DNA from: Fischerella sp. CENA71
Lineage (GTDB): Bacteria; Cyanobacteriota; Cyanobacteriia; Cyanobacteriales; Nostocaceae
Direction: 5' to 3'
DNA: 64,000 nucleotides
NCBI GenBank assembly: GCA_024239075.1
Contig: JANBVI010000030.1
Coordinates: forward strand, 123,246-187,245
Under the pieces are notes generated by a model, which worked only from the letters and a program-made list of their open reading frames with translations, had not been told where the DNA came from and did not search any database. The position numbers were made by a program, and so were the translations under genes. Shown here piece after piece: positions 17,180 to 56,440 of this stretch; position 1 is the stretch's first letter, and the number at the start of each line of letters is the position of its first letter.

Positions 17180-17324
17180 TCTTGGCTAAATTTTTTATAC
17201 AATTCATTATCTTTTTACCTCACCGTTTGTCTAATCAACTTGAACTAAGAGAAATTATCGACCAAGTGGTGATAGATGTTCCCTTATTTAATTAAATTCA
17301 TTCTTGATGACACAAAGGGTGAGT

Positions 17325-17870: not shown

Positions 17871-18100
17871 TAGTTAGACACCCTTACAAATATTAACTAT
17901 TAAATATCATAAACTAGGTACAATTTCAAACCTTGTGAGGAGCGCTTACATATCCTTTATTTCATCAAATTTATTCTTGATTACGCGAATGGAGAGTTTT
18001 ACTCTCTATATTTCTTAGCAACTCTTAATTAACTTCTCAGTCTGATGTAAAAATCGCGACGGATAATCAAAATAGCGATTCCAAACAGGTATGCAGTGAT

Positions 18101-35595: not shown

Positions 35596-35630
35596 CAAAT
35601 GTCCCATCACTCTAACCTCTCACGGGTGAC

Positions 35631-36449
35631 ATGACGGAGATTTGTGACGAAAATAGCCCTCGTTTCATTACAAATGTTCACACGACGCTATCCACTATTA
35701 CTGATGAGCAGGCAGTCCCACCGATTCATGAAGTACTAGCTCTTAAAGCATTGCTGCCAAAAGAACATTTAATGGATAGTGGATATACTGCTTCCGAGTA
35801 TTTGGTCAACAGCAAGACTGATCATGACGTAGAAATAATTGGGCCAGTGCGACCAGACCCCAGTTGGCACTTCAAAGCGGGGCAGGGATTCGATACCACT
35901 AATTTTGTAGTGGATTGGGATAATAAAGTAGTTACTTGTCCACAAGGGCATAAAAGTACCAAATGGATACCAAGAAAAGATGTCAAAGGTCAAGCTATCA
36001 TTGACATTCGATTTTTGGGTAGTACTTGCCGAGCCTGTCCAGTACGTTTAAAGTGTACCCAATCAAAAACTCAACCACGGGAGTTAAGTCTTCAGTCTCA
36101 AGCACGTCAAATTGCGCTTCAGTCAAGGCGACAACAACAGCAGACACCCGAATGGAAACAAACTTATAACCAGCGTGCGGGCATAGAAGCAACACATTCA
36201 CAAGGTATCAGGCGCTCTGCCCTGCGTCGCTCTCGCTACATCGGATTGGTTAAAACCCATCTTCAGCATATTCTCATTGCTACGGCACTGAATTTAGTCA
36301 GGTTGGATGCTTGGCTGAGTGGGATACCCCTTGCCAAAACTCGCTCCAGAAAGCTTCAAACAGCTACAAAATACACCTTCTTAATTAAAAATCAAACTAT
36401 AGATTCCGTGTATTACATGGAAAAATATTCACAGACCTCATCGGTGTAA
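35631..36449 (+). pseudogene. IS1182-family transposase, 5'-truncated
   Basis: 272 aa matching the C-terminal half of IS1182-type transposases: HLMDSGYTASEYL, VVTCPQGHKSTKW, the CRACPVRLKCTQSK zinc-like block and a final YNQRAGIEATHSQGIRRSAL with the catalytic Glu. The N-terminal half with the first DDE Asp is missing. The frame begins immediately after the right end of the IS4-type element, which suggests that the latter inserted into or rearranged with it. Confidence 0.85.
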
Positions 36450-36770: not shown

Positions 36771-36983
36771 GAAAGCGAGTTTCATCAAACATCTGATACC
36801 GCGATCGCAAAAAACGCTCCGCAGCCCATCGCAAAACAGTCTGTTCGATTGCCTGTTGCATCCCTGGAAATTTTACGTGACCGTGTTTTGTCTGATCTGA
36901 AGCTGGGTAAGCAAGCACCTGGCTATAAAACTGCTCAGAAAGCTCTCAATCGGTTTATTTCTGAACTAATCGGTTCAGTTTAG
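36512..36983 (+). pseudogene. Ribbon-helix-helix-like protein gene, frameshifted
   Basis: An ATG at 36512 starts MKKVKRDIQGKFTLKNDDYR and EVRSLRLTDDTWKRLG, then the frame breaks. One extra A at about 36620 separates it from the continuation EFAECLGLTRADYLEEIIQQ in the frame that runs to 36983. The block SLRLTDDTWKRLGEFAECLG looks like a CopG/MetJ-type DNA-binding fold. The C-terminus (LKLGKQAPGYKTAQKALNRF) recurs in the remnant at 56302. With the frameshift the gene is probably inactive. Confidence 0.65.
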
Positions 36984-37006
36984 CTGTTTGGGAATTCGCC
37001 AACAGT

Positions 37007-37501
37007 GTCTTCGCTACTTTCCCCCCAATTCCCGGCGTAGCACGTAATACTGCTGAAGTGTTACTAGCTGAGATTGGCATTGACATGACTCGTTTCCCTT
37101 CTGCTGCACACTTAGCTAGATGGGCAAGGGTCTGTCCAGGAAACAATGAGAGTGCCGGAAAACAATTTTCTGGTAGAACTGGACAAGGTAACAATTGGTT
37201 ACGCAGTGCTTTGATTCAAGCGGCTAACGCCGCCAGCAGATGTCAAAACTCTTATTTGGCAGTAGTTTATCAACGTCTCAAGGCACGACGCGGTAGGAAA
37301 AGGGCTATTGTCGCTGTTGCACACCGAATTTTGACTGCTGTCTTTCATATGTTATCCACAGGTCAACCTTATACAGATTTGGGGGTTAATTATCTTAATC
37401 AGCCTCAAAAACAGCATTTGCTCAAACGTCTACGTTCTCGATTGGAACAACTTGGTTACAAGGTGACTCTCGACGCACAGCCCTCTCCAACACCCAATTA
37501 A
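37007..37501 (+). pseudogene. IS110-family transposase C-terminal fragment
   Basis: The frame encodes about 164 residues of the Transposase_20 half of an IS110 transposase: IPGVARNTAEVLLAEIG, HLARWARVCPGNNESAGKQF and GRTGQGNNWLRSALIQAANA, then RGRKRAIVAVAHRILTAVFH. The N-terminal DEDD half is missing. The homology starts directly after GGAATTCGCCAACAGT (36992-37007). Confidence 0.85.
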
Positions 37502-37689: not shown

Positions 37690-38727
37690 TTATACTCGAA
37701 TTCCCTCGATCACACTTACGTTTGACTTTGTAGTGATCACTTTGGTCAGCTTGAAGCCAGAAGCCTCAAACAGAGTTTGATATTCCATCTTGGTACGTTC
37801 ACGACCGCCAGAAATGGCTATTAGCATATGCATATCCAGAAACTTGCTCCAAGAAGGTTCATTGCCAGGTGGAATGATCAGCTCGACCAACAAAAGTTTG
37901 CCATTTTCCACCATAGCGCTGTGACAGTTCTTAAGAAGAGCGATCGCACGTTCATCATCTAAAAGATGGATAACGTATTTGAGAATGTAAGCATCGCCAC
38001 CGCTTGGTACAGTCTCTAAGAAGTTTCCAGCAACAATTTGACAGCGTTTTGAGACTCCCTCTGCTTCGAGAACACTCTTTGCTCCCTCAATTACCGATGG
38101 TCTTTCAAAGAGAACACCTTCCATTGTGGGATTAACTTTTAAAATGGAGGCTAAGAAACTTCCGTGTCCACCACCAACGTCAACTAATTTGCGGATAGAT
38201 GAAAAGTCATATGCTGCAACAACCTCTACTTTATCTTTTGCTGAAACATTTGTCATCGCCTCATCAAAAGTCTTTCCCGCCTCTGAATTTTGTGCATAAT
38301 ACTGGAAAACTGGCATATCGTACAAATTCTGGAAAGCGTTATCACCAGTTTGTATGCTGTGGACAATATCTCCCCAAGCGCGGTAATGTTCTTCACCAAA
38401 ACTAATCGCAAAGGCACGTATTGAGTTAGGAGCATCACTCTGGAGATAAGTAGCTAGTGGTGTGAGGGTAAAGCATCCCTGTTCATTCTCAGCAAAGATC
38501 CCCAAACTAGCAAGCGCACGCATGAGTCGATAAAGAGCTTGTGCATTTGTTCCAGTTGAAGTTGCCAGAAGCTCGCAGTTTTGCGGACTATCTTTTAAGA
38601 TGTCAGCTATACCAAGCTTTGCGGCAGCATATACTGCTCGTGAAACCCAGTAGCTAGTTGCCAATTGAATCATTACTATTTGTGATGGCATATCTTGTGA
38701 GATCTGAGTATTTTCTTTGAGAAACAT
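37690..38727 (-). CDS. SAM-dependent O-methyltransferase (acetylserotonin/caffeate type)
   Basis: 345 aa. N-terminal dimerisation winged helix (ATSYWVSRAVYAAAKLGIAD, NAQALYRLMRALASLGIF) and C-terminal Rossmann domain with SAM motif LVDVGGGHGSFLASIL; DAYILKYVIHLLDDERAIAL carries the usual catalytic-His helix (VIHLLDD). Such enzymes methylate hydroxyl groups on phenolic or polyketide products. It points away from the PKS 1.8 kb downstream and is a plausible tailoring enzyme of that cluster, though membership is not proven. Confidence 0.88.
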   Translation of the reverse strand: MFLKENTQISQDMPSQIVMIQLATSYWVSRAVYAAAKLGIADILKDSPQNCELLATSTGTNAQALYRLMRALASLGIFAENEQGCFTLTPLATYLQSDAPNSIRAFAISFGEEHYRAWGDIVHSIQTGDNAFQNLYDMPVFQYYAQNSEAGKTFDEAMTNVSAKDKVEVVAAYDFSSIRKLVDVGGGHGSFLASILKVNPTMEGVLFERPSVIEGAKSVLEAEGVSKRCQIVAGNFLETVPSGGDAYILKYVIHLLDDERAIALLKNCHSAMVENGKLLLVELIIPPGNEPSWSKFLDMHMLIAISGGRERTKMEYQTLFEASGFKLTKVITTKSNVSVIEGIRV

Positions 38728-38949: not shown

Positions 38950-39645
38950 TTAGTTATCTATTGACCTATCAATATCTGAAATTATGACATCGCTAGGAAA
39001 AGGTATAGGTTCAGGATTCATTAAGAAAGTAGTTTGTGAATACCATTGTCCATTAACCTCAAACCTTTCAAATTCGCTTTCTAAGATGGCCCAAATATGC
39101 GGATTAAGTGCAGCATTATATTGCCACCTGAAACGGTTTGTCATCACAAATTCACGTTCCAGTGTTTCTAAATCGCTCAGACGCCAAAAGCGAGTCATTA
39201 TGCGTTGAGTTAATTCGATAGCAGGAGTTTGTAATGCCATCTCCATTGGTTTATTAATAATGATTTGTTTGCGATCAGAACATCTAACAATGGAGACGGG
39301 TCTTTCTGTTTCTCCTGCCTGTACTATCTGCTTTAATAATGGTACAGGCAGATGTAGTAAAGAACATAATACTTCGCCATCTGTACGTAAAATCGCTTCT
39401 GCCGTTTCATATGCTGTTGGTGGTTGTTCTAATGCCATCCAACCAAAGATTTGGATAGGAGACTTGCAGCATCGCCAAGTGATTTTTACCTTGCCTTTGA
39501 TATTATAGGCTGTCTCAGTCAAACATTCCCGATACATTAAAGCTAAATGTGTTGCAGCTTGTTTATTAGGAGCTTTAATTGTTATACCTTCATGGCTAAA
39601 AAAATAATTCCAGTGAGGCTGATTGAGAACTTTAAATAGTTCCAT
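38950..39645 (-). CDS. Hypothetical protein, plasmid/accessory-type
   Basis: 231 aa from the ATG at 39645, which lies inside the end of the upstream gene (14-nt overlap), so the two are coupled. No membrane segment. Recognisable stretches are WNYFFSHEGITIKAPNKQAA and RFWRLSDLETLEREFVMTNR. I do not recognise the family. Its operon partner is a small ribbon-helix-helix-like protein. Confidence 0.6.
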   Translation of the reverse strand: MELFKVLNQPHWNYFFSHEGITIKAPNKQAATHLALMYRECLTETAYNIKGKVKITWRCCKSPIQIFGWMALEQPPTAYETAEAILRTDGEVLCSLLHLPVPLLKQIVQAGETERPVSIVRCSDRKQIIINKPMEMALQTPAIELTQRIMTRFWRLSDLETLEREFVMTNRFRWQYNAALNPHIWAILESEFERFEVNGQWYSQTTFLMNPEPIPFPSDVIISDIDRSIDN

Positions 39646-40039
39646 TTTCAACACCTTTCTGATAGTTGCTGTTATTGCCATAGGTTGCAAACCAAAGCTT
39701 TTGTTGTAGTTTTTCAGGTACAGCTAAGGCTTGCATGATCAAAAGGAAATCATCTTTTGTCGGTAAAACCTCAGCGCTAGCAATTAATTTGAGGTTTCTA
39801 ACTCCTGTACGCCGTCGAAGCTTGTTAATATTGCGTTGAACTAACTCATGAATAGTTGCTGGTTCTGGTTCGGCTTCTTTTTTGAGAGTTTTTTTATCTT
39901 GTCTTGCACTGAGGGCTTCAGCAACAATTGATCCAACAAGGCTACTAATAGTTTGTCCTTCTTGTTTCGCCCAGTGTTCCAGTTCTGTTTTTGTGTCTAA
40001 ATCACAGATAAAAGTGACTTTTTCTTTTTTTGTTGGCAT
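39632..40039 (-). CDS. Small ribbon-helix-helix-like protein
   Basis: 135 aa from the ATG at 40039 (MPTKKEKVTFICDLDTKTEL); a longer frame to 40138 adds a region without family character. Residues 8-45 (VTFICDLDTKTELEHWAKQE, TISSLVGSIVAEAL) have the beta-helix-helix layout of CopG/Arc proteins. A second domain (NKLRRRTGVRNLKLIASAEV) follows. Likely a DNA-binding regulator of its own operon; targets unknown. Confidence 0.6.
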   Translation of the reverse strand: MPTKKEKVTFICDLDTKTELEHWAKQEGQTISSLVGSIVAEALSARQDKKTLKKEAEPEPATIHELVQRNINKLRRRTGVRNLKLIASAEVLPTKDDFLLIMQALAVPEKLQQKLWFATYGNNSNYQKGVENGTI

Positions 40040-40139
40040 TTTGAGTAAATCCACAATTCTGCACTCTTCTTTATCATGATCTATGCTCCTAGAAGGATGA
40101 TTTTTTAGTTCTAACCCTATTGACAGGTTCGGAACCAAA

Positions 40140-40491: not shown

Positions 40492-43400
40492 ATGTCTAAT
40501 CCTGCGATCGCAGTTATTGGAATGGGTTGTTGGTATCCTGGCGCCCATAATTTACCACAGCTTTGGGAAAACATACTTGCCAGACGGATTCAATTTCGCA
40601 GGATACCCCAGCAGCGATTACCGCTTTCTGATTACTACGATCCTGACCCAACTGCGGCCGAAAAGACCTACGCCAACCGTGCTGCTGTTATTGATGGTTT
40701 TGAGTTCGATTGGATTGGTAAACATATTCCCAAAGGAACCGTTGAATCGGCAGACATCGTTCATTGGCTAGCACTTGAAGTCGCACTCTCTGCTTTGGAG
40801 GATGCCGGGTATACACGTCAAAACGTTGTGACTAAACGTTCAGGTGTAGTACTTGGTAACACACTGACTGGGGAGCAAATGCGGTCTAATGCAATGCGCT
40901 TGCGCTGGCCTTATGTTCAACGATCAATGCGCGCAGCTGCCGAAGCCAGAGGATTGCCATCACAATTAATAAATGAATTGATAGAGACTACAGAAGAATA
41001 CTACAAGTCAGCATTTGCAGCAATAACAGAGGATTCCTTGGCTGGATGCCTTTCTAACACTATAGCTGGCAGAATTTGCAACTTTCTTAACTTTAACGGT
41101 GGTGGATATGTAGTGGATGGTGCTTGCTCTGCTTCACTGATCGCAATTGCTACCGCTGCGACAGCCTTAGTTAATAATGATTTAGATTTGGCACTTGCTG
41201 GAGGTGTTGATGTTAGTCTAGATCCTTTTGAAATCGTTGGATTTGCCAAGATGGGTGCAATTACCGCTCGGCACATGACAGTTTACGACAAAAAAGCTAG
41301 CGGTTTTATTCCAGGTGAAGGTTGTGGTTTTGTTGTCCTCAAACGGTTAGAAGATGCTCGTCGAGATGGCAACTATGTGTATGCAGTATTGCGTGGCTGG
41401 GGTATTTCTTCTGACGGTAGGGGCGGCGTTACTGCACCCAAAGCGGAGGGTCAAGCGATCGCACTTTTGCAGGCCTATGATCGGGCAGGTTACAAAATTC
41501 GCGACCTTGATTTGATTGAGGGACATGGTACAGGTACTCCTGTAGGCGATCGGGCAGAACTGGAAGCCATTGGACTAGCTATGGGTGCTGATGGAGAGGC
41601 AACTAAGCGCAATTGTGGTATCACCTCCTTTAAATCAATAGTTGGTCATACGAAAGCAGCAGCAGGTATAGGAGGGTTTATCAAAGCCGTGATGGCCGTA
41701 AATTCTCGAATCCTACCACCAACTGCTAGCTGTAAAGAACCCAATCAAGTATTTGAAACGTCTGCTAGCTGTATCTACCCGATCCTGCAAGGAGAAATCC
41801 GCAGCCAAACCGAAACTCTGCGAGCAGGTGTTTCGGCGATGGGATTTGGCGGCATTAATTGCCACGTGACTCTTGAGTCTGGTGATCATCCCTCTGTTCG
41901 TCTAGCAACGTCTATTGAAGAGCGTGCTTTACTCGTTTCTAAACAAGATACAGAACTGTTTGTGCTTGGTGCGGAGTCTATTTTAGGTTTGCTGCAACGC
42001 ACACAGGCTATAATCCGCCTTGCAGAAGGAATTAGCGTTGCCGAACTTACCGATTTGGCAGTACACCTGACTCAGGAACTGGATTTAAAATCACCAGTTC
42101 GGGCAGCTGTTATTGCTGATACACCCGAAGAACTGATTGACAGTCTCAAGCAACTTGAGAAAATGTTGAGCGACAAGCCTCCTGCTAAAGGAGAGATTGC
42201 GATTAGCCAACAAAAAAATATCTGGCTTGGTAATACAGTTTTTCGCCGCAGAATTGGTTTTCTGTTTCCCGGTCAAGGTTCTGGACAATTGAATATGGGG
42301 CGCACCCTTGTTGAACGCTATAGCTGTGCTAGCGAACTTGTAAAGCAAGCAGATGGCTGGTTACAGGAAATGGGAGCGCAAGCAATTAGTCAATTCATAT
42401 TCCGTCCTTTAGATAGAGCTGTTAATGCAGAGCAGATTCAGGAGTGGTCAACAGCACTGACACAAACACAAGTTGCCCAACCTGCTATTTGCCTAGCCTC
42501 TTTGCTTTGGACTCGTAGACTTGCTAACCTTGGCATCAAGCCTGTAGCAGTAGCAGGACACAGTCTTGGAGAACTTACTGCTTTTCGGGTTGCAGGTGCT
42601 TTTGATGACAAAACTTTGCTGAACTTAGCTACAGTTCGAGGGCAAGCTATGTCTGCATCACAAAACGATGCTGGAACTATGGTCAGTTTAGCTTGCTCGC
42701 AGCAAACAGCTGTGAAACTTTTGCAGCAAGTTAGTGGTTATGCAGTTGTAGCAAATATCAACAGTCCAAAGCAGGTGGTTATATCAGGCGATCGCCTAAG
42801 CATTCAGCAAGTTATTGAACTTGCCGCAAATCATGGCATCCAAACATATCAACTTCCTGTTTCTCATGCATTTCATTCTCAATTGGTTTCAGGAGCAGCC
42901 GAACATTTAAAGAATCATGCATCAGTTCCGGAGAAGCTTGGAGAAATCACTACCCAGTTATTTTCAAGTGTAGACGGACAACAAGTACAACCAGGACTCA
43001 AACTGCGCGAGCATTTTGCACACCAAGTTACAGCCCAAGTAAACTTTGTTGCTTTGGTTCAAAAACTAGCCCAGTCATGCGATTTGATCATAGAGGTAGG
43101 CCCTGGAAAAGTTCTCTCAGGTTTAGTAAAAGATATTATTGAACCAAGTAGTTCTCTATGTCTGCCTGTTGAATCAAAACCTGGCATGGATAAGGATCTC
43201 AATACTGTGTTAGCGAGTCTCTTCGTTCACGGTAGCGAAATCAACTGGGAAGCGCTTTACGAAAAGCGTCTTGTCCGACCTTTTATGCCAGCGTCAGCTC
43301 GTGTCTTCATTGAGAATCCTTGCGAGCATCCATTTCAAGTCTCTGCTGTTACTCCATCGCAGACTATATTACCTTCTCAAGACCGGGTCCAGTCAATGGT

Positions 43401-46400
43401 TGCTGATGGAAGCAATGTTTCCCCACAGGTTGTGTCTCAAGTACTGTTCGATTACCTCTCTCAAAGAGGTAAGTTTCTCGCCGAGGTGGTTCGAGCAGAC
43501 ATGCAAAACCTGCCATCACTTAACAATGGTGCCGTTAAGGATTACCACCAAGCACAAATTTCTCCCATTTCTGTGGAACCAAAGTCAAAAACAAAGGTAG
43601 AAACCTCTAATGACCATAGCAAAATAGAAGCTATTGAGGAACTTCTGTTAAATCAGGTTGCTCAACGCACAGGATATCCCAGAGAAAACATTGTACTGCA
43701 AGCAAGATTGCTTGACGATTTAAACTTAGACTCGATTAAAGCTGGTGATCTAATTGCAACTTTGGCTAAGGAATGTAATGTGGCGGGTAAGATTGATCCA
43801 TCAACTCTTGCCAATGCAACACTCCAAGAAATAGCTCTTGTCATTCGTGCAACCATAGCAAATAATCAAACAGATGTTGAAGCGATCGCGCCAGAATTAA
43901 CAGTATCTACTCAAGCCTTAAACTTGCCAGCATCAATACCTAATCTTCTGTTGGAACTGGTAGAACAACGTACAGGTTTTCCACGAGAAACCTTGTCAAT
44001 GAACCTGCGTCTACTCAATGATTTAAATCTTGACTCAATCAAAGCCGGGGAGTTCGTTGCAGAAGCGGCCAAGCGCGTCCAAGTACCGGGACGCCTAGAC
44101 CCTTCACAATTTGCTAATGCTACCTTGACGGAAATTGCAAATGCTCTACAACAGCTTTATTTAGAAGAAAATACCTTAGAGCATTCACAGCCGAGTGTAG
44201 CCAAAACCGCCAAGAGCGCAACTAAACCCTCAACCATGACAAGCTTCGGGCAAAAGTCTTGGGCGCGCAACTTTATTATTCAATATGCCATTGAGGAAGC
44301 TCAAGCAAGTCTCAGCGAAAGCCAACAAAACCATTGGAAAACTGCAAATGTGCTGATTCTCTGTACTCCGGAGCAGGGAATTGTAGCAGAAGCAATGCAA
44401 AAAGAACTACAAAGCCGAGGCGCACAGGTTCATGTAAAAGCCTTTACGGCAGCCAATGAGCAGTCGTTGACGAACAGTGTTGATTGTTCTCACTTTATTG
44501 CTTTTCTTCCCCAAGCTACGACTGATCGCTTGTCAGCAGACGTTAATTTACAAGAAATAATTAGACGGCTATATACTGTAGCAACACTCACACCTGTTGT
44601 CAGCAAACCACACAAACCCACGACCTTGGCTTTTATTCAGTTTGGCGGAGGATACTTCGGTAAACAACCACAGGTTGCCAATATCGAACAGTGCTGTGCA
44701 ACAGCCTTTGCAGCCAGTATCCATGTCGAGCGACCCAATTTGAAAGTCCGAGCAATTGATTTTTCTACAGATGTTAATCCGACTTTGCTGGCAGAACGTG
44801 TAATCTATGAACTCTCGACACCTGAGACTTATGCCGCAGTTGGCTATGATTCAGAACTGACTCGACGTGTTCCCCGACCAGTTTTACAGCATCCAGCAAG
44901 TTATTCAAAAAGACCCATTTCTTGGTCAGCAGACGATGTTATTTTAGTCACAGGTGGTGCGAAAGGCATCACTGCCACCTGCGCTCTTGCTTTTGCCCAA
45001 GCGACAGGCGTGCGTATGGCACTAGTTGGCACTTCGCCCCACCCGCAAGGCGAATACAACGAGGTTGCTAGCACACTGGAAAGCTTCAAAAATGCAGGAT
45101 TAACTTGTCAATACTATCAGTGTGATATTACCGACGCAGAAGCAGCGATCGCTCTCATTCACCAAATCCGCCAAGAAATGGGCAAAATTACAGGTGTCAT
45201 TCACGGTGCTGGACTCAATAAAGCTAGAAGAGTAGAGCAGGTTTCTGTACAAGCAGCACGTGCAGAAGTTGCGCCTAAAGTCCTCGGCGCTCTCAATCTC
45301 TGCAATGCTTTGCAAGACAATCCACCAAAACTTTTTGTCGGCTTTGGATCGATTATTGGTATCATAGGTGTGCCGGGCAATACTTGGTATGCTTTTTCAA
45401 ATGAAGCACTAGATCTAATTTTGCGCCGCTTTGAGGCGGAACATCCAGAAACATCTGTTCTTACCATTGCCTTCACTGGCTGGGAAGAGGTTGGCATGGC
45501 AGAACGTATGGGTAGTATTCCAGCTTTAGTTAAGCTTGGACTCTATCCCATTTCCAAAGAGGAAGGAGTGCGTCGATTCCTGAAGTTGATGCTGAATTAT
45601 CCTGGCGATCGCCAAGTTGCAGTTGCAGGTAGAATAAAATATGATACATGGTTGCCAAAGCTTCCTCCATTATCACCCGCCTCAAGGTTTTTAGAGCAAA
45701 TCATCCATATCGAACCCGGTGTGGAAGTGATCTCGCGAGTTCACCTAAGTATAGAGAAAGACCTTTACATCCAGGATCATATTTACAAAGGATCATATCT
45801 GTTTCCCACTGTATTTGGTCTGGAGGCTATGGCTCAAGTGATTGCCTATGCTACAGGTCAGTCTCAATTCTCAGCACTGCGTATTGAAGATATCCGTCTT
45901 GAGCGACCCATTGTAGTAGACCCTGTAGAAGGTGTGGATATTGAAATTCATGCAGAGGTGATTGAAGACTGGTCTGCTGGTGCTGAACAGAGGGTACGTG
46001 CAGGTATAAGAACAGAACAGACAGGCTTTACTATAGACCATTTTTCGGCAACCTTTGTCCTAAATACCGATAGCAATGTACCCAAAGTAACTGTCGAACT
46101 CTCAGAAACTCCTTTAGATATTCAGCCACAGCAGGATCTCTACAGTTGGTTGTTATTCCAGGGTTCACGTTTTCAACGTCTCCAGGAGATTTATACTCTC
46201 AATGCTAAGGAGTGTGTATTTAGTACAGAGATACGTGCATCTTCGTTAACGGGTAAGGATAGCTTTGCTGGCAAAATATCATCTCCTTTACTACTTGGAG
46301 ACCCGTTTTTCCGAGACTCGCTACTGCAAGTTGTGCAGCTGATCATTCCACAAGATATTAGTCTTCCAATCCGTATTGATAGTATCGAACTCTATCAACT

Positions 46401-46776
46401 AAATAAAAATGTCTCACACAAGGCTATTGCAATTGCCACCCTTGAGGGTCGAGATGGTCAACACTATAGCAGTACCGTCTTTGCCTTTGACAAAGATGGG
46501 CAGATGATCGAAAAGTTAGAAGGCTACCAGTTAAGAGTTCTAGAGCATCGAGAAGATCATCCCACAGCACAAGAACTAGCACAGCCAAGTCAACGAGATG
46601 AACAAATGTTGTGTACTCAATTGGCTCATTGGGCTGAACAATTTCAGGTAGCAGTACCAGAAGTATCTCTGGTTTATCTCCCAGGTTTACATGAGCTATC
46701 TAGAGCGGAACGTCATCAGCGAGAACTCCCTGTGTTCTCAAGAGCGATCGCAAAGTTGCTTAATACCAATCAATAA
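40492..46776 (+). CDS. Iterative type I polyketide synthase, KS-AT-ACP-ACP-KR-DH
   Basis: 2,094 aa from the ATG at 40492 (GGAG seven nt upstream). KS about 1-450: Cys212 in DGACSAS, His345 in EGHGTGTP, His386 in GHTKAAAG. AT about 600-890: FLFPGQGSGQ, Ser691 in GHSLGE and HAFH at 792-795, which favours malonyl-CoA. Two ACPs, Ser1081 and Ser1182, both in DLNLDSIKAG. KR: GGAKGI at 1488-1493, Ser1620, Tyr1633, Asn1637. Hotdog DH: His1763-x3-Gly-x4-Pro1772 and Asp1942-x3-Gln1946. No ER, MT or thioesterase domain. This order is that of PfaA plus a DH, and of enediyne PKSs, which work iteratively; here ACPs are tandem and the PPTase is a separate gene. All catalytic residues are present. The product is unknown, probably a polyene. 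Confidence 0.93.
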   Translation: MSNPAIAVIGMGCWYPGAHNLPQLWENILARRIQFRRIPQQRLPLSDYYDPDPTAAEKTYANRAAVIDGFEFDWIGKHIPKGTVESADIVHWLALEVALSALEDAGYTRQNVVTKRSGVVLGNTLTGEQMRSNAMRLRWPYVQRSMRAAAEARGLPSQLINELIETTEEYYKSAFAAITEDSLAGCLSNTIAGRICNFLNFNGGGYVVDGACSASLIAIATAATALVNNDLDLALAGGVDVSLDPFEIVGFAKMGAITARHMTVYDKKASGFIPGEGCGFVVLKRLEDARRDGNYVYAVLRGWGISSDGRGGVTAPKAEGQAIALLQAYDRAGYKIRDLDLIEGHGTGTPVGDRAELEAIGLAMGADGEATKRNCGITSFKSIVGHTKAAAGIGGFIKAVMAVNSRILPPTASCKEPNQVFETSASCIYPILQGEIRSQTETLRAGVSAMGFGGINCHVTLESGDHPSVRLATSIEERALLVSKQDTELFVLGAESILGLLQRTQAIIRLAEGISVAELTDLAVHLTQELDLKSPVRAAVIADTPEELIDSLKQLEKMLSDKPPAKGEIAISQQKNIWLGNTVFRRRIGFLFPGQGSGQLNMGRTLVERYSCASELVKQADGWLQEMGAQAISQFIFRPLDRAVNAEQIQEWSTALTQTQVAQPAICLASLLWTRRLANLGIKPVAVAGHSLGELTAFRVAGAFDDKTLLNLATVRGQAMSASQNDAGTMVSLACSQQTAVKLLQQVSGYAVVANINSPKQVVISGDRLSIQQVIELAANHGIQTYQLPVSHAFHSQLVSGAAEHLKNHASVPEKLGEITTQLFSSVDGQQVQPGLKLREHFAHQVTAQVNFVALVQKLAQSCDLIIEVGPGKVLSGLVKDIIEPSSSLCLPVESKPGMDKDLNTVLASLFVHGSEINWEALYEKRLVRPFMPASARVFIENPCEHPFQVSAVTPSQTILPSQDRVQSMVADGSNVSPQVVSQVLFDYLSQRGKFLAEVVRADMQNLPSLNNGAVKDYHQAQISPISVEPKSKTKVETSNDHSKIEAIEELLLNQVAQRTGYPRENIVLQARLLDDLNLDSIKAGDLIATLAKECNVAGKIDPSTLANATLQEIALVIRATIANNQTDVEAIAPELTVSTQALNLPASIPNLLLELVEQRTGFPRETLSMNLRLLNDLNLDSIKAGEFVAEAAKRVQVPGRLDPSQFANATLTEIANALQQLYLEENTLEHSQPSVAKTAKSATKPSTMTSFGQKSWARNFIIQYAIEEAQASLSESQQNHWKTANVLILCTPEQGIVAEAMQKELQSRGAQVHVKAFTAANEQSLTNSVDCSHFIAFLPQATTDRLSADVNLQEIIRRLYTVATLTPVVSKPHKPTTLAFIQFGGGYFGKQPQVANIEQCCATAFAASIHVERPNLKVRAIDFSTDVNPTLLAERVIYELSTPETYAAVGYDSELTRRVPRPVLQHPASYSKRPISWSADDVILVTGGAKGITATCALAFAQATGVRMALVGTSPHPQGEYNEVASTLESFKNAGLTCQYYQCDITDAEAAIALIHQIRQEMGKITGVIHGAGLNKARRVEQVSVQAARAEVAPKVLGALNLCNALQDNPPKLFVGFGSIIGIIGVPGNTWYAFSNEALDLILRRFEAEHPETSVLTIAFTGWEEVGMAERMGSIPALVKLGLYPISKEEGVRRFLKLMLNYPGDRQVAVAGRIKYDTWLPKLPPLSPASRFLEQIIHIEPGVEVISRVHLSIEKDLYIQDHIYKGSYLFPTVFGLEAMAQVIAYATGQSQFSALRIEDIRLERPIVVDPVEGVDIEIHAEVIEDWSAGAEQRVRAGIRTEQTGFTIDHFSATFVLNTDSNVPKVTVELSETPLDIQPQQDLYSWLLFQGSRFQRLQEIYTLNAKECVFSTEIRASSLTGKDSFAGKISSPLLLGDPFFRDSLLQVVQLIIPQDISLPIRIDSIELYQLNKNVSHKAIAIATLEGRDGQHYSSTVFAFDKDGQMIEKLEGYQLRVLEHREDHPTAQELAQPSQRDEQMLCTQLAHWAEQFQVAVPEVSLVYLPGLHELSRAERHQRELPVFSRAIAKLLNTNQ

Positions 46777-46804
46777 TGGCATCACCTCTAATTAGGAGTG
46801 TTAA

Positions 46805-47434
46805 ATGGTAAACACATCGCTATCAACTTCAGTAGAAGTCGAGGATAACAATATTGAGCATACACCAATGCCTCTGCAAGAAACAGGTCTGCAACAGGTT
46901 CAGATCAAATGGCTTGATTCAGGTAAACCTGTACTTGAAGGGCTAGAAGAAAAAGCTATAAATGTGTCTCTTTCTCATGATGACTATGTCTGCATGTGTG
47001 TCGCTGGTTATGGACTTCAAGGTTGCGATATTGTTCCTGTCACACGTAGAACACAACAAGAATGGATTGCTTTGTTGAGCTACAAACGGGAACCATTGAT
47101 GCAACAGTTGTTACGTATTAATGACTCGCTAGACCAGGCTGGGATTCGTATCTGGGCAGCAGTAGAGGCTTTGCGTAAAGCAACCAACGCTTTAGATATT
47201 GACTTGGCTATTACTCAAACCAAGGAAAATTGTGTTTTGTTTCAGGATGTATTTTCTGGGGATAAGCTTCAAGTCCTCACCTTTCCTATTCGGCTGACTC
47301 GGGGGGCTGAAAGAATGGTGGCACTAGTTGTACAAAATATTAGCTTATACGTTCCGACTACAAAGTTACGGTTAAACGCAAAAATCAACACGGAGACAGT
47401 TGTGAATGCACAGCACTCAATTATCAGAATATGA
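46805..47434 (+). CDS. Stand-alone 4'-phosphopantetheinyl-transferase-like protein
   Basis: 209 aa. Residues 53-125 resemble the PPTase domain fused to the C-terminus of enediyne-type PKSs: VSLSHDDYVCMCVAGYGLQG, CDIVPV with Asp75, and IWAAVEALRKAT with Trp117, Glu121 and Lys125. The usual DxE metal pair reads D-I-V, so the middle Glu is Val77. It starts 28 bp after the PKS and most likely activates, or binds, its two ACPs. It could be a split-off domain of the PKS. Whether it is active with the altered metal site is uncertain. Confidence 0.75.
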   Translation: MVNTSLSTSVEVEDNNIEHTPMPLQETGLQQVQIKWLDSGKPVLEGLEEKAINVSLSHDDYVCMCVAGYGLQGCDIVPVTRRTQQEWIALLSYKREPLMQQLLRINDSLDQAGIRIWAAVEALRKATNALDIDLAITQTKENCVLFQDVFSGDKLQVLTFPIRLTRGAERMVALVVQNISLYVPTTKLRLNAKINTETVVNAQHSIIRI

Positions 47435-49169
47435 TGTTATAGTACTAGGTACAGGATTTGCTGGTAACTGCCAAGTCCGACACCTATTGCTCAAGATCCC
47501 AGATATTCGAGTAGCCCTCATTGATCCTCATCTGGAAGAAGATTTAGAAGCAGACTTCAAACCTGGCGAGTCAATGATTGAAATTGGCACACTATTTGTT
47601 TGTAAAGAACTTGGTCTTTATGACTATGTGGTTGAAAATCATCTGCCCAGAGTCGGCTCAAATTTCCACTGGCCGAAAGACCCAAGTCAAACGGAAATTG
47701 CAGATGATTACCATCATATTTGGTGTAATCGGCAACCTGAACTTGATTCTACTCAAATAAACAGCGCTAGATTTGAGCAAGACTTGCTACACATGAATAA
47801 AGAGATGGGCGCTGACTTCTTTAAAGGTCGTGTTGTTGATGTAGATCTGACCCCAAGTGATGCCTTAAAAACAGTTAAGGTGCAGTTGGGCAACGAAAAC
47901 ATCCAACTAAAAGCCAAACATATCATTGATAGTGCAGGCTGGAAATTTATTGTCGGACATAAAACAGACAATCTCCTGTTTGAACCAGAAAATCTGGATG
48001 GAGTCAACGTTGGCTCTGCATGGATCAATATCAAACATGTAAATCGTGATATTTTCCACAATGGTTATGATCCACACGGTGCAACTTGTAGCCATTACTA
48101 TGCCACCAATCATTGGTTTGGTTATGGTCACTGGGTATGGATGATTCCTACAGATAAGTACACTCAAGAAATCTCGATTGGTGTGATTCACCACCGTGAG
48201 GTGATTTCTACTTCTGATATCAATACTCAGGAAAAATTTTATGCTTTTCTTGAGGCAAATCACACCAATTTGTACAAGCTACTCAGCAGTGGTGACAGTG
48301 ACAATGTTGATTTTCACTATTTGCCAAGCATTACTCACACTAGTAAGGTGATGTTCTCACCAGACAACTGGTACGTGCTTGGTGATGCAGCCTGCTGTTT
48401 TGATATCTTCTATTCTTCAGCAACAACAATGATTTCATTCAGCATCGAAAGCATCACAGAAATCATCCGTGCTAAACTCGCTGGCGAACCTGATGCTGAA
48501 GAGAAGCGCTCTGCTTATAATGACTTCTGTATTGCTTACGCACACCAAGTCAACCATCAGATGAAACATCGTGTTCAGCAACTTGGACACGCCAGTGTTA
48601 TGAGTTGGCGCATTTATTTGGAGTATATGTGGCTTTTTGGGTTAACTTTGCCAATGTATGTAGGCAAATGGTTTTTAGACCCGAAGTATATTCGTGCGTA
48701 TCTGAAGAAAACTCCTAGTTTACAGAGAGTGATTTCCGAAGTATATGAGGACTTTAACAAGTTAGTAGACCGAGGTGCCAATATCGGATTGATGGATATC
48801 TACCGAGCCGATCAATTATTTGGAGATTACACACCGATTAAGCCTCAAGATGACTACTTGGAGAACGCAAAATTTGAACCCAAGCATTGCAACGTCTTTG
48901 CCAGCTTAAAACAGACTTACTTTTACACTGCTATCTGGTACATCCTTCTGCTGTGGAAAGGTTTTGGCCTTTCGGGTGTGCTAGCTCTACGCCATCTCTA
49001 CAACTTCTTTAGTTTGTTGAAAGGAGCATTAGACAGTGCTGTGAGGGAGAGAGCTTACTTGCAAGAGACTAAACATATGCCTACTAACAGTGAAGTGGCT
49101 GAGATGCGACAGGAGTTTAAAAACTATCGATATCAACCACAATTCCAGCCCAGGTCTAAGATTGTATGA
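47406..49169 (+). CDS. Flavin-dependent halogenase-like protein, copy 1
   Basis: 587 aa; the start overlaps the previous gene by 29 nt, so translation is probably coupled. FAD-binding motif GTGFAG at 15-20, KPGESM near 60, and WVWMIP at 243-248, which matches the WxWxIP motif of flavin-dependent halogenases. YVLGDAACCFD is the second FAD contact. After about residue 400 a long extension has hydrophobic segments (YMWLFGLTLPMYVGKWFL, FYTAIWYILLLWKG) that suggest membrane association. Substrate probably ACP-bound or free polyketide; halogenation itself is inferred from the motif and could be another flavin oxidation. Confidence 0.85.
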   Translation: MHSTQLSEYDVIVLGTGFAGNCQVRHLLLKIPDIRVALIDPHLEEDLEADFKPGESMIEIGTLFVCKELGLYDYVVENHLPRVGSNFHWPKDPSQTEIADDYHHIWCNRQPELDSTQINSARFEQDLLHMNKEMGADFFKGRVVDVDLTPSDALKTVKVQLGNENIQLKAKHIIDSAGWKFIVGHKTDNLLFEPENLDGVNVGSAWINIKHVNRDIFHNGYDPHGATCSHYYATNHWFGYGHWVWMIPTDKYTQEISIGVIHHREVISTSDINTQEKFYAFLEANHTNLYKLLSSGDSDNVDFHYLPSITHTSKVMFSPDNWYVLGDAACCFDIFYSSATTMISFSIESITEIIRAKLAGEPDAEEKRSAYNDFCIAYAHQVNHQMKHRVQQLGHASVMSWRIYLEYMWLFGLTLPMYVGKWFLDPKYIRAYLKKTPSLQRVISEVYEDFNKLVDRGANIGLMDIYRADQLFGDYTPIKPQDDYLENAKFEPKHCNVFASLKQTYFYTAIWYILLLWKGFGLSGVLALRHLYNFFSLLKGALDSAVRERAYLQETKHMPTNSEVAEMRQEFKNYRYQPQFQPRSKIV

Positions 49170-49254
49170 CGACTGAAAAACCCAAAAATTTTAGCGTTTC
49201 ATTTTGAGCTGATTTGCAAATAGATTTTTAACAAATTACAAAGTGGAGTTTTCA

Positions 49255-51102
49255 ATGCATACTATTCAACAGCAAGAATACGATGTCGTTATTATGGGTG
49301 CAGGTTTTGTTGGAGTCTGTCAAGCTCGGCATCTCTTACTTAAACTCCCAAATATCCGAATTGCTCTGGTTGACCCGCGTCCAGAGGAGCGTACAGACAA
49401 AGACCTCAAGCTTGGTGAATCAATGGTCGAAATTGCTACCCTGTTTGTGTCTAAGGAATTAGGTCTCCATGAGTATTTAATTGAAAATCATCCTCCCAAA
49501 TCTGGGTTGAATTTTCACTGGGCTAAAGACCCAGCAAAAACAGAGACGACTGACGATCACTACCACGTTTGGTCTAATCGACGCTCACCTATTCAAACTT
49601 TTCAAATGAACCGCGCTAAATTTGAGCGGGATTTATTGAGAATGAACAAAGAAATGGGTGCTACCTTCTACAATGGTCGCGTGGTTGATGTAGATTTGAC
49701 CCCAGGGGATGCCCTAAAAACGATCAAAGTCAAGCTGGGCAATGAGGACATCGAACTGAAAACCAAACATGTTATTGATGGTTCGGGTCGCAAATTTATT
49801 ATTGGACATAAGACAGACAACCTCTTATTCGGTCCAGAAAATCTTTTTGGAGTCAACAGTGGTTCAGCTTGGGTACGCGTCAAACATGTGGATCGGACTA
49901 TCTTCCACGACGGTTATGATCCCTACGGTGCTACTTGCAGCCATTACTATGCTACTAATCACTGGTTTGGTCATGGTCATTGGCTGTGGATGATTCCCAC
50001 AGACAAGGATACTCAGGAAATATCAATTGGTGTTGTCCATCACCATGATGTGATTCCGGCTTCTGACATTAATACTCAGGAAAAGTTTTATGCTTTCCTA
50101 AAAGCAAATCACGCCAACTTGTATAACTTGCTTACCAGTGGTGAGAATGTAGACTTTCACTACTTACCAAGACTTGCCCACAAGAGCAAGGTTATGTTTT
50201 CTCCAGATAACTGGTATGTGCTTGGTGATGCGGCTTGTATTTTTGATGCTTTCTATTCTTTAGGAACAACGATGATTGCCTTTGAGATTGAAAGTGTCAC
50301 AGAAATTATCCGTGCCAAACTTGCTGGTGAACCTGACGCAGAAGAGAAGCGTGCTATCTATAACAGCTTCATTGTTGCTTACACGGGTGCGGTTAACTAC
50401 ACCATGAAAAACCATTCTAAACATCTTGGTCATGCCAGCATCATGAGTTGGCGCATTTACTTTGAGTATATGTGGTTCTTCGGGTTGATTTTACCCATGT
50501 ACGTAAGCAAATGGTTCTTGGACCCGCAGTATATTCGTGCGTACTTGCAGGGTGCTGGTGCTGCCAAGAGAGTGATTTCTGACGTATACGAGCAGTTTAG
50601 CCAGCTTGTAGATCGGGGTGCTAACATCGGGTTGATGGATACTTACCGAGCCGATCAATTGCTTGGACACTACTCAACAATTCAACACTTTGGCAATTAT
50701 CTAGAAAACGCCAAGCTTGAACCGAAGCGCCATAACATTTTTGTCAGTGGGGTATATGCCTACTTTTACCTTACTATTTGGTATATAATGTTTCAGTGGA
50801 AAGGTTTTGGGCTGAAGGGCGTATTGGCTCCGCGAAATCTCTATAATGTCTTCAGCTTATTGTCCTCATCAGTCAAATCTGGTTTTGCTGCACTGAATTA
50901 CTGGCTCAAGAATAAAAATGTACCGACGAATAGCTTGGTAGGAAAAATGCGTCAAGAGTTTGAGAGCTATCAATATCGACCTGAACTCCAGCCTTGGATA
51001 AAGGATATAACTGTTCCAAGAGTCAAAATACAAGGTTCTGAGGATCAACATTTAAACGGTACAAACGTATCAAAAGTTCATGAAGTTGCAGTATCTGGTT
51101 AA
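49255..51102 (+). CDS. Flavin-dependent halogenase-like protein, copy 2
   Basis: 615 aa from the ATG at 49255, after GTGGAG. Closely similar to the preceding gene over its whole length (roughly two thirds identical by eye). GAGFVG at 15-20, WLWMIP at 243-248, YVLGDAACIFDAF and the same C-terminal hydrophobic extension (YMWFFGLILPMYVSKWFL, FYLTIWYIMFQWKG). The tail of about 40 residues past the point where copy 1 ends is unique. A tandem duplication with two kept copies suggests two different positions or substrates. Confidence 0.85.
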   Translation: MHTIQQQEYDVVIMGAGFVGVCQARHLLLKLPNIRIALVDPRPEERTDKDLKLGESMVEIATLFVSKELGLHEYLIENHPPKSGLNFHWAKDPAKTETTDDHYHVWSNRRSPIQTFQMNRAKFERDLLRMNKEMGATFYNGRVVDVDLTPGDALKTIKVKLGNEDIELKTKHVIDGSGRKFIIGHKTDNLLFGPENLFGVNSGSAWVRVKHVDRTIFHDGYDPYGATCSHYYATNHWFGHGHWLWMIPTDKDTQEISIGVVHHHDVIPASDINTQEKFYAFLKANHANLYNLLTSGENVDFHYLPRLAHKSKVMFSPDNWYVLGDAACIFDAFYSLGTTMIAFEIESVTEIIRAKLAGEPDAEEKRAIYNSFIVAYTGAVNYTMKNHSKHLGHASIMSWRIYFEYMWFFGLILPMYVSKWFLDPQYIRAYLQGAGAAKRVISDVYEQFSQLVDRGANIGLMDTYRADQLLGHYSTIQHFGNYLENAKLEPKRHNIFVSGVYAYFYLTIWYIMFQWKGFGLKGVLAPRNLYNVFSLLSSSVKSGFAALNYWLKNKNVPTNSLVGKMRQEFESYQYRPELQPWIKDITVPRVKIQGSEDQHLNGTNVSKVHEVAVSG

Positions 51103-51261
51103 ATAACAGGAGTATTTGTGGCGATCGCTCAAGTGATCGCCACTAGTCTAAGTAAAAGTCTTTTCAAACAAGAGTTGCGATGTTTATTTTCTCAAAGTTG
51201 CATACTCCCAGAATTTCAATTGGCTCACTATCCTAATGAAACTTCTTGGTAGAGCAACAGT

Positions 51262-51618
51262 ATGTCCTCCAGATTATCTCAAACTTTAGACTGCTACAAA
51301 ATCCAGAAAGGAATCCATCTGTTGGGATTGAATATTTCAGAGTCAGAACTGAAAGAATTACTGTCTGGAAATAGCATTTCACTCGAAAGTAGAGGTTTAA
51401 GTGAAATAGGTTTATTGTTTATTCTTGCAGAAGCACTTTCGGCCTCAAATTCCTTTAAAAAAGTTACTTTTCGAGATTTATCAGAAGTGATTACAGAAGA
51501 TTTATCTAGTCCTGGTATTCCAATTTTCTGTTGGAATTCAGAAGTTGGCAAGTGTTGTCTATACTTGGCTTTAGTCAATGGTCAGCCTGCACTCAAGACT
51601 TGCTATCAGCATTTCTAA
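51262..51618 (+). CDS. Orphan 118-aa protein of the PKS cluster
   Basis: Soluble protein starting MSSRLSQTLDCYKIQKGIHL, with SEIGLLFILAEALSASNSFK and SSPGIPIFCWNSEVGKCCLY. No family recognised. It lies in the middle of the same-strand gene run, 160 bp after the second halogenase-like gene and 35 bp before the next gene, so a role in the pathway is likely. The CxxxxxxCC pattern near residues 89-99 may be functional. Confidence 0.6.
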   Translation: MSSRLSQTLDCYKIQKGIHLLGLNISESELKELLSGNSISLESRGLSEIGLLFILAEALSASNSFKKVTFRDLSEVITEDLSSPGIPIFCWNSEVGKCCLYLALVNGQPALKTCYQHF

Positions 51619-51653
51619 AAAGATTTTGTGTTACACAACTGGAGAGATTAAAG

Positions 51654-52016
51654 ATGGTGTTTGTATCTTCAACATATATGCGGCTGAAATCACCTCTTTA
51701 TATTCCACTACTGATCTTCTATGTTCTGCGAGCTATGCTTCAAATTGAACGTGCCTCTGGCAAGCTGAATACTCGATATCGGTGGGTGGATGGCGAATTT
51801 TGGACGCTCAGTCTCTGGCAAGACGAAGCATCAATGAAAACCTATCGTAATCAAGGAGTACATCGTCAAGTCATGCCAAAACTAGTTGAGTGGAGCAGTG
51901 AAGCAGGTATTGTAAATTGGTATCAAGAAAGTGCGAAACTTCCAGATTGGCAAAGCGTAGAACAACGTATGCAGGAAACAGGAAAGCGGCAAAAATTTGG
52001 GCATTTTGTGAGATAA
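51654..52016 (+). CDS. Dimeric alpha/beta-barrel protein (monooxygenase/DUF3291-like)
   Basis: 120 aa from the ATG at 51654, preceded by GGAGAGATTAAAG; the longer frame to 51531 overlaps the previous gene and is rejected. The pattern YRWVDGEFWTLSLWQDEASM, TYRNQGVHRQVMPKLVEWSS and VNWYQESAKLPDW is that of small ferredoxin-like dimeric barrels (antibiotic-biosynthesis monooxygenases, DUF3291). Such proteins oxidise or cyclise aromatic polyketides. One hydrophobic N-terminal segment (PLYIPLLIFYVLRAML) precedes it. Confidence 0.7.
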   Translation: MVFVSSTYMRLKSPLYIPLLIFYVLRAMLQIERASGKLNTRYRWVDGEFWTLSLWQDEASMKTYRNQGVHRQVMPKLVEWSSEAGIVNWYQESAKLPDWQSVEQRMQETGKRQKFGHFVR

Positions 52017-52126
52017 CGGAAGAAGACGTTATTTGAATGTACTTAACTAGGAATAGGAATTAAGTTGAGCAGCAAAACTTAATTCTCTACAGGCTTGATT
52101 TATCCAAAACTCCATAGGAAATATCA

Positions 52127-53269
52127 ATGCTGAAAATTATTGACAATGCCACAAACTTCATCGTACACCGGAAAGACCCAAGCCAATATAAATTCATCTC
52201 CGCAGGAATTGAGACAGATTTGAAATCAGATCAAGTACTCTTAAAAGTCGATAAGTTTGCATTGACCGCAAACAATATCTCTTACGCTTTGGTAGGAGAG
52301 GCTTTAGGATACTGGGACTTTTTTCCTATTGCGGAGGAAGCTTGGGGATGCATTCCAGCCTGGGGATTTGCTGAGGTCGTTCGTTCCAAAAAAGACAGCT
52401 TGGCAGAAGGCGATCGCATTTTTGGATTCGTGCCAATGTCAACTCATCTTATACTGCAACCTGATGCTGTATCCCAAGAAGGCTTTGTCGATGCCTCGCC
52501 GCATAGGAGCAAGTTTTCCCCATTGTACAACCAATACCAATTGCTAAAACATAATCCCCTGTATTTACCTGAACACGAAGACCTCTGGGGGCTTTTTTGG
52601 CCGCTGTTCATGAGCGCTTTTGTGCTAAATGAGTTTTTGAACGAAAACAACTTTTTCGGCGCCCAAGCCATTTTGATTTCTAGTGCATCAAGCAAGACTG
52701 CGATCGGGCTTGCGTTCCTTTTATCTCAGAAGCGGAACTCTCAATGTGAGGTCATTGGTCTGACCTCATCACAAAACTTGTCGTTTGTTGAGAGTCTTGG
52801 ATATTATAGCCAGGTGCTGACCTACGACCAGATCCAATTGCTTCCTAGCAATTTATCGGTAGTGTATGTGGATATAGCGGGTGATGAAGACGTATTGAGT
52901 GCTCTCCATTATTACTTTCAGAACATGAGGTACAGCTGTTTGCTGGGTGCAACTCACCGAAAACGTCGGAGCAACTTAGAAATTAATAGTATGCTTCCAG
53001 GCCCCCATCCAACGTTTTTCTTGGCTCCAGAGGAGATCCAGAAGCGAGTACAACAATTGGGAGTCAATAGTTTTCATAAAAGTTTTGGTCACTCATGGTC
53101 AAAATTTTTGTTGTCAATAAGCAAGTGGATTCAGATCGTTTCTGGCACAGGCAAGATAATTGTAGAGAAAACTTACCTAGATATACTAGCGGGTCGTTCA
53201 AAGCCAAATCAAGGGCAGGTGCTTTCTCTTGAACAAGTAAAAGGATTTTTTTCAAGACTCCCAGAGTGA
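52127..53269 (+). CDS. DUF2855 family protein
   Basis: 380 aa. The DUF2855 pattern is present: VLLKVDKFALTANNISYALV, WGCIPAWGFAEVVRS, GDRIFGFVPMSTHLIL and the Rossmann-type AILISSASSKTAIGLAFLLS. The family is related to medium-chain dehydrogenases/quinone and enoyl reductases but lacks a named reaction. As the last gene of the run it could supply the reductase activity that the PKS itself lacks. Cytoplasmic. Confidence 0.85.
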   Translation: MLKIIDNATNFIVHRKDPSQYKFISAGIETDLKSDQVLLKVDKFALTANNISYALVGEALGYWDFFPIAEEAWGCIPAWGFAEVVRSKKDSLAEGDRIFGFVPMSTHLILQPDAVSQEGFVDASPHRSKFSPLYNQYQLLKHNPLYLPEHEDLWGLFWPLFMSAFVLNEFLNENNFFGAQAILISSASSKTAIGLAFLLSQKRNSQCEVIGLTSSQNLSFVESLGYYSQVLTYDQIQLLPSNLSVVYVDIAGDEDVLSALHYYFQNMRYSCLLGATHRKRRSNLEINSMLPGPHPTFFLAPEEIQKRVQQLGVNSFHKSFGHSWSKFLLSISKWIQIVSGTGKIIVEKTYLDILAGRSKPNQGQVLSLEQVKGFFSRLPE

Positions 53270-56134: not shown

Positions 56135-56301
56135 CGCTTCGTTACTGTTACGGTTCACCGTTGTAGTTTTAGTTAAATCAAAAATAGGAAACGATGCAAT
56201 ACTTCTCGGTTAAGAATTAAGCAGTATACTGACTTGGAAATAGATTTCCATTTGTGCTGGTGTACGCAGTTCATGACGACTGTTGGCGAATTCGCAAAAG
56301 A

Positions 56302-56440
56302 CTATGCGCTTGTAGTTAATTTAGCAATGAAACGATTGAGAGCTTTAAGTGCCGCTTTGTAACCAGTGGCTTGCTTACCTAACTTCAGCTCCAACAAAAT
56401 GCGATCGCGTAAAAGGAGAGCGAAAAATTTCGGGGGAGAT
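56302..56440 (-). pseudogene. Remnant of the ribbon-helix-helix-type gene 3' end
   Basis: On the minus strand DRILLELKLGKQATGYKAAL followed by KALNRFIAKLTTSA matches the C-terminus of the frameshifted gene at 36512-36983. The upstream part of the gene is missing. GCGAATTCGCCAACAGT follows its stop, as GGAATTCGCCAACAGT does in the other copy. Confidence 0.65.

Follow-up and report, generated by a model that had tools for sequence, protein, structure and literature searches.

An enediyne-like iterative polyketide synthase cluster with twin halogenase-like flavoproteins in Fischerella sp. CENA71

The DNA considered here, a stretch of 64,000 nucleotides from Fischerella sp. CENA71 (hereafter the window), corresponds to C30:123246-187245, that is, part of contig C30 of a 7.47-Mb genome (G000) whose genus code, g1, is common to genomes G001, G002 and G003. 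Positions 40492-53269 hold seven plus-strand genes with intergenic gaps of -29 to +159 bases, which encode an iterative type I polyketide synthase (PKS) with ketosynthase (KS), acyltransferase (AT), acyl carrier protein (ACP), ketoreductase (KR) and dehydratase (DH) domains, a phosphopantetheinyl transferase (PPTase)-like protein, two flavoproteins (FLA and FLB), an orphan protein (ORPH) and two proteins of DUF families:

40492..46776, plus strand: iterative type I PKS, KS-AT-ACP-ACP-KR-DH, 2094 aa from ATG (Pfam domains, KS clade, collinearity with SgcE)
46805..47434, plus strand: PPTase-like protein (weak PF01648, NCBIfam AcpT, alignment with the SgcE C-terminus)
47406..49169, plus strand: FLA, halogenase-like flavoprotein with Arg for the catalytic Lys (motifs, tandem-duplicate tree, dN/dS)
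49243..51102, plus strand: FLB, halogenase-fold flavoprotein with the catalytic Lys (start GTG 49243 or ATG 49255)
51262..51618, plus strand: ORPH, 118 aa; its family is small and cyanobacterial (unmatched in Pfam and NCBIfam)
51654..52016, plus strand: DUF3291 protein, 120 aa (PF11695; start from orthologues and upstream purines)
52127..53269, plus strand: DUF2855 protein, 380 aa (PF11017)

For the PKS, a TTG at 40459 is an alternative to the ATG at 40492. This gene content had been read from the DNA in an original prediction, including the single strand, the short gaps, the separate PPTase-like gene and the tandem WxWxIP flavoproteins, and it stands on re-examination. The DUF2855 assignment is strong (PF11017, 327.7 bits), and the DUF3291 match lies just above its cut-off (PF11695, 26.7 against 23.5 bits) on a longer open reading frame (ORF; 51531-52016), the start being probably at 51654, giving 120 aa as in relatives L041 and L042. 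Scans of Pfam and NCBIfam returned no match for ORPH, homologues of which were found in 14 of 150 genomes. ORPH relatives (53-58%) also occur in five stretches that lack a flavoprotein of this family (L173-L177), in one of which (L174) the gene lies beside non-ribosomal peptide synthetase, ACP, KS, KS III and 3-deoxy-D-arabino-heptulosonate 7-phosphate (DAHP) synthase genes.

The domains of the PKS (P0001) are placed as follows:

40504..41733, plus strand: KS domain (PF00109 and PF02801, residues 16-425)
42259..43137, plus strand: AT domain with GHSLG (PF00698, residues 601-893; alignment)
43642..43836, plus strand: ACP 1 (PF00550, residues 1062-1126; LNLDSIKAG at residue 1088)
43945..44139, plus strand: ACP 2, ends approximate, by analogy with ACP 1 (second PF00550 stretch; LNLDSIKAG at residue 1189)
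44941..45459, plus strand: KR domain (PF08659, residues 1495-1667)
45727..46554, plus strand: DH domain, double hot-dog (PF21089, residues 1757-1833; PF14765, residues 1878-2032)

The Cys and the two His motifs of the KS are visible in alignment with enediyne PKS (PKSE) synthases, the enzymes that initiate the biosynthesis of the enediyne anticancer antibiotics, and a Pfam scan of the PKS gave no match to an enoylreductase (ER). Aligned end to end, the PKS and the PPTase-like protein are collinear with SgcE of the C-1027 pathway (L072) in the order KS, AT, ACP, KR, DH and PPTase, and the domain order is also that of the S. clavuligerus PKSE (L073). The window differs in having two ACPs with NLDSI, where PKSE has one with H(L/M)(S/T/N)S(I/L), and in placing the PPTase on the next gene. 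When 72,556 plasmid records were searched, the best KS-AT matches outside cyanobacteria were PKSE-type synthases of Streptomyces, two of which, SgcE (43.1% identity over 97% of the query) and that of NBC_01237 (42.8%), belong to loci annotated with two DUF1702 genes, CRTAC1, E4, PKS and thioesterase genes. The 209-aa PPTase-like protein scores below cut-off in Pfam (E 0.026) and NCBIfam (AcpT, E 4e-4) and aligns with the C-terminal PPTase domain of SgcE; its motif reads GCDIV, clusters of the window type have GCDIV or GCDIA, and fused relatives (e.g., L049-L055) have GCDIE.

The position of the KS was examined in a tree of 53 of 74 rows, the 21 left out being second copies of a contig, near-duplicates, and partial or extra modular rows. 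Twenty-three cyanobacterial KS, that of the window among them, fall into one clade (support 100/99), the sister of which comprises five actinobacterial KS, the cyanobacterial G021 and one Sinorhizobium sequence (99/95); the union of the two is supported at 100/100, and KS of the same genome that resemble polyunsaturated fatty acid (PUFA) or Hgl synthases fall outside it. One of the actinobacterial rows, L147 (Nonomuraea), comes without the annotation from which a cassette could be read. A second tree, from which three long rows (L075, L150_10992 and L064_15773) were dropped and to which L157 was added, left the window clade and its PKSE grouping unchanged and placed G021 and G062 with the five actinobacterial KS on one side of a branch (100/99). 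In approximately unbiased (AU) tests, the two groups of which were defined once the first tree was known, forcing the window clade together with four PUFA/Hgl-like rows (own-genome multidomain synthases labelled as such in this analysis, with no characterized HglE among them) cost 299.6 log units (p-AU 5.6e-10), and an arrangement separating the window type and enediyne PKSE from the other cyanobacterial rows was unrejected at 5% (p-AU 0.058). The best NCBIfam model for the PKS is PfaA, below its cut-off (636 against 1010 bits); for comparison, own-genome PUFA-like synthases score 1746 and 2195, above the cut-off, and 943, below it, and SgcE scores 457. On these sequence criteria (clade, AU test and PfaA scores) the synthase belongs on the enediyne PKSE side and not on the PUFA/Hgl side, although branching inside the PKSE side is not firm. 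The iterative PUFA/enediyne architecture proposed originally is right, and is narrowed by the KS phylogeny that had been suggested as its check.

Six genomes (the window's, G001, G002, G053, G060 and G062) share the gene order PKS-PPT-FLA-FLB-ORPH at 72-97% identity per protein, which makes it a unit far beyond chance. DUF2855 accompanies it in five of the six, G060 excepted, and was found in three of 60 genomes searched, all three carrying a window-type cluster; DUF3291 accompanies it in four of the six, an opposite ORF being called at that place in G002 (L040). In G062 the PKS is called as two ORFs (879 and 1243 aa) and may be interrupted. Ratios of nonsynonymous to synonymous substitution rates (dN/dS) between the window and three to four relatives are 0.14-0.17 for PKS, 0.14-0.28 for PPT, 0.15-0.20 for FLA, 0.05-0.14 for FLB, 0.10-0.22 for ORPH and 0.29-0.36 for DUF2855, and all six genes are therefore under purifying selection.

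The reading that we favor, with somewhat more confidence than doubt, places the cluster on a branch of the enediyne PKS family that makes no enediyne, in which an iterative synthase would make a polyene and the ACP-bound chain would be modified by FLB with FLA as its partner. FLA and FLB are 67% identical, and in a quick tree without bootstrap (58 of 84 rows) they derive from one tandem duplication. Halogenases top both the sequence-match and the structure-match lists for the flavoproteins, and FLB resembles the flavin adenine dinucleotide (FAD)-dependent halogenases PltA, Bmp2 and CndH, which act on carrier-bound substrates, as well as CmlS and PltM, in the fold of its predicted model, in GxGxxG and in WxWxIP, which reads WxWMIP in both twins. 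The PF04820 score is above the cut-off of 21 bits for FLB (36.8) and below it for FLA (19.1). By eye, K86 of FLB aligns with the Lys of PltA that we take to be its catalytic lysine. The corresponding FLA residue is R in the window and in four orthologues, and K in the orthologue of G060 (Scytonema NIES-4073); by this alignment FLA is a protein without the catalytic lysine that is nevertheless under purifying selection. The predicted FLB model differs from the known enzymes in its long helical C-terminal region.

The chief alternative, which we regard as unlikely but deserving of consideration, is that the twins are flavin monooxygenases or oxidoreductases that epoxidize, hydroxylate or dehydrogenate the polyene with no halogen added. 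The loss of the lysine from FLA, and the failure of either twin to match FxPxSxG, given as a FAD halogenase motif in the part of PMC8407142 available (FLB has FDAFYSLG, with A for P), make chlorination uncertain. Against the monooxygenase explanation stand the halogenases at the head of both match lists, the lysine kept in 77 of 84 flavoprotein relatives, and the retention in both twins of WxWxIP, for which a role in preventing monooxygenation is suggested in the same portion of that source. The product had originally been expected to be chlorinated or oxidized once or twice; the fold, WxWxIP and the FLB lysine speak for halogenation, and chlorination once or twice is uncertain given the state of FLA and of FxPxSxG. 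Family flavoproteins with the lysine and DPFYSLG also neighbor PKS genes that do not belong to the PKSE clade (L106, L107 and L126 from Microcystis; L099, L110, L091 and L090), in L126 together with a lone ACP; these loci are a distinct cluster type, whose flavoproteins may modify a starter unit. Other flavoprotein relatives (41-52%; L122, L124 and L128-L131) are found in metagenome-assembled genomes of Myxococcota, Deltaproteobacteria and Verrucomicrobiales, in the flanks of which a mechanical ORF caller, which missed the flavoproteins of L122 and L129 and the PKS of L148, called no PKSE-type PKS.

As had been predicted, no DUF1702 (E3), E4, E5 or thioesterase gene lies beside the window PKS. 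A KS-AT search of 150 genomes at E 1e-130, with five scored candidates for each, found matches in 26, and at 23 places identity was at least 59%. By position, a family flavoprotein lies on the same contig within ~10 kb at 20 of these 23; in G132 it is on a contig other than that of the PKS, and in G034 and G040 none was found at E 1e-20, the G040 locus ending with its contig soon after DevC, so that a flavoprotein farther on may have been missed. The PKS contexts in the latter two comprise PKS pieces, a thioesterase (TE)-like domain or gene, and DevB. At four places of 46-52% KS identity (G021, G055:C24, G058:C15 and G062; family code f1) no family flavoprotein adjoins the PKSE homologue, and E5, ~47% identical to that of C-1027, adjoins all four in a search for E5 that covered 40 genomes and six loci; five remaining places showed 34-36% identity. 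The order E3-E5-E4-PKSE-thioesterase is found in G021 (L144, C1:174001-192000) and G062 (L157, C1:3886001-3906000), the PKSE of the latter being split over two reading frames in the assembly. The E5-adjoined and flavoprotein-adjoined sets indicate that two PKSE-like lines coexist, in G062 within one genome.

Fifty-five loci were fetched by their flavoprotein, so that their own flavoprotein count is no test, for which the PKS-side search serves. The 30 with a PKSE-clade synthase have DUF1702 (13), a thioesterase-like domain (11), ORPH (12), DevC (10) and a carotenoid-oxygenase-like gene (5), and none of the 30 has E4 or E5. The L050 cluster combines an RPE65-type oxygenase with an aldehyde dehydrogenase, PF10118 and two DUF1702 genes, and an oxygenase family that cleaves polyenes would fit a polyene intermediate.

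It is very improbable that this is a true enediyne pathway, with its remaining genes elsewhere in the genome and an enediyne as final product. Besides the collinearity with SgcE, such a pathway could draw on contig C46 (L060, L061), where a second PKSE-type cluster has a split synthase with fused TE-like domains, a flavoprotein, ORPH and DevBCA, and where the one DUF1702 copy of G000 lies ~10 kb on (C46:30523-31455). E10-type thioesterase in G000 occurs only as domains inside that synthase, and G001 and G002, which carry window-type clusters, likewise have DUF1702 on other contigs, beside other clusters of the same family. However, G000 has no E5 (CRTAC1/UnbV) match at E 1e-8, and its sole E4 (UnbU) match is generic (26%, contig C74); the stretches examined around window-type clusters L040-L044 contain no DUF1702; and the E5 cassettes of the four relatives lie beside the different KS line, both types being carried by G062. 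The thioesterase query found no match in G001, G002, G053 and G060, and its sole match in G062 lies inside the separate enediyne cassette. In the C46 flavoprotein itself the Lys is missing, as are the central Gly of GxGxxG and the residues of the D-S-G motif.

An HglE-like glycolipid alkyl chain or a PUFA as product is scarcely credible: the general domain set of iterative type I PKSs is shared, PfaA is the best, if sub-threshold, NCBIfam model and DevBCA, which exports heterocyst glycolipids, lies beside some relatives, but this identity is rejected as to clade by the KS tree and AU test with own-genome comparison rows, two own-genome PUFA-like synthases pass the PfaA cut-off that the window PKS and SgcE fail, and the window cluster has no ER match and no second KS or DevBCA beside it.

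Upstream of the PKS lie three genes in divergent orientation:

39632..40054, minus strand: ribbon-helix-helix-like (RHH-like) protein, 140-aa form (PF07878, 25.0 bits against a cut-off of 26)
38950..39690, minus strand: protein of 246 aa that belongs to no known family (orthologues upstream in L040, L042 and L043)
37690..38727, minus strand: S-adenosylmethionine (SAM)-dependent O-methyltransferase (PF00891 and PF08100; best PDB match 6c5b, E 5e-97)

Searches of Pfam, NCBIfam and PDB gave no match for the 246-aa protein. The RHH-like protein, which has an orthologue upstream of the PKS in four relatives (L040-L043), is a probable cluster member and a possible regulator; the 246-aa protein and the O-methyltransferase, which have orthologues there in three relatives (L040, L042 and L043; in L041 and L044 the sequence is too short upstream to check the remaining genes of the trio), are possible members. 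Because of these orthologues the cluster may begin near 37690. The whole cluster lies between inverted repeat arms at 36871-37006 and 56279-56414 (99 nt at 77%, 20 nt at 95%). The left arm adjoins an IS110-type transposase fragment (37058-37501), and further transposases lie at 35086-36449, 58672-59787 and 61190-62857; the cluster may be in a mobile or insertion sequence (IS)-rich stretch. Elsewhere in the window, positions 12001-18000 are low in G+C (31-35% against mostly 36-48%) and encode a NUDIX protein, an amidase and a histidine kinase, and a perfect 66-base tandem duplication occupies 57877-58008.

Returning to the reading of an iterative polyene synthase with halogenase-fold partners, the AT would load malonyl units, the KS would extend the chain iteratively, and the KR and DH would reduce and dehydrate it in each round. 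Since the synthase has no ER, a conjugated polyene would result, and it would be held on one of the two ACPs, as suggested by the domains and by the precedent of CalE8, for which polyene assembly on the ACP is described in the available part of PMC3107222. FLB, with the fold of halogenases of carrier-bound substrates, would then modify the chain, the likeliest reactions being chlorination or an oxidation that took its place; FLA, as a retained paralogue, would probably support FLB structurally or catalyze a changed reaction. An SgcE6-like reductase on contig C20 (37%) is a possible source of reduced flavin. Release would proceed without an E10-type thioesterase; release, reduction and capping may fall to the DUF2855, DUF3291 and ORPH proteins and to the divergently oriented O-methyltransferase. 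The product is probably a decorated polyene. A more specific version, to which we give rather little weight, is that in cyanobacteria flavin halogenases that chlorinate the ACP-bound polyene have taken the place of the E3/E4/E5 cassette, with FLB active in this lineage as a heterodimer with the lysine-less pseudo-halogenase, and with either a chlorinated polyene as end product or vinyl chlorides eliminated to alkynes.

The cluster had been called apparently undescribed, which does not hold for its kind: the sections available of Frangeul 2008 (PMC2442094) already describe three halogenases next to a PksE-like PKS of enediyne type in Microcystis aeruginosa PCC 7806. Excerpts of other works list a "PKSI iterative" type among orphan clusters with unknown compound (Humbert 2013, PMC3741299), show that cyanobacteria have clusters and a KS clade of the enediyne type (Calteau 2014), and tie enediyne-like KS to Cyanobacteria, such compounds being unreported there according to the text available (2023 KS survey, PMC10308959); neither "enediyne" nor "iterative" occurs in the main text of Micallef 2015, which deals with Subsection V genomes (PMC4558948). 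Microcystis, Prochloron, Nostoc and Fischerella all have clusters of this type, for which the texts consulted name no product, and the PksE-plus-halogenase kind is known already in cyanobacteria. Microcystis strains other than PCC 7806 (L095, L096 and L102) have members of the same PKS, flavoprotein and ORPH families and, in addition, a fused thioesterase-like domain, an alpha/beta hydrolase and DevBCA, all absent from the window cluster. Compared with Microcystis, the window cluster has two flavoproteins by lineage-specific duplication, a separate PPTase gene, DUF2855 and DUF3291. New, as far as we have seen, are the duplicated twins with a lysine-less copy, the detached PPTase without the motif glutamate, the lack of a thioesterase, and DUF2855/DUF3291. 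As the original prediction had supposed, no product of this cluster was found reported among the open-licence papers listed.

To our knowledge, the conversion of PKSE polyenes into enediynes is an open question, and the clade offers a natural contrast, with synthases accompanied by E5 at four places and synthases accompanied by halogenase-fold partners without E5 at 20 of 23, even inside G062. A comparison of the products of the two lines would reveal the contribution of the E3/E4/E5 cassette. The cluster also bears on the questions of whether polyenes bound to an ACP are substrates of flavin halogenases and whether a halogenase paralogue that lacks the lysine can serve as a conserved partner. 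If it occurs, vinyl chloride elimination would be a second path by which a PKSE polyene could yield unsaturated carbon.

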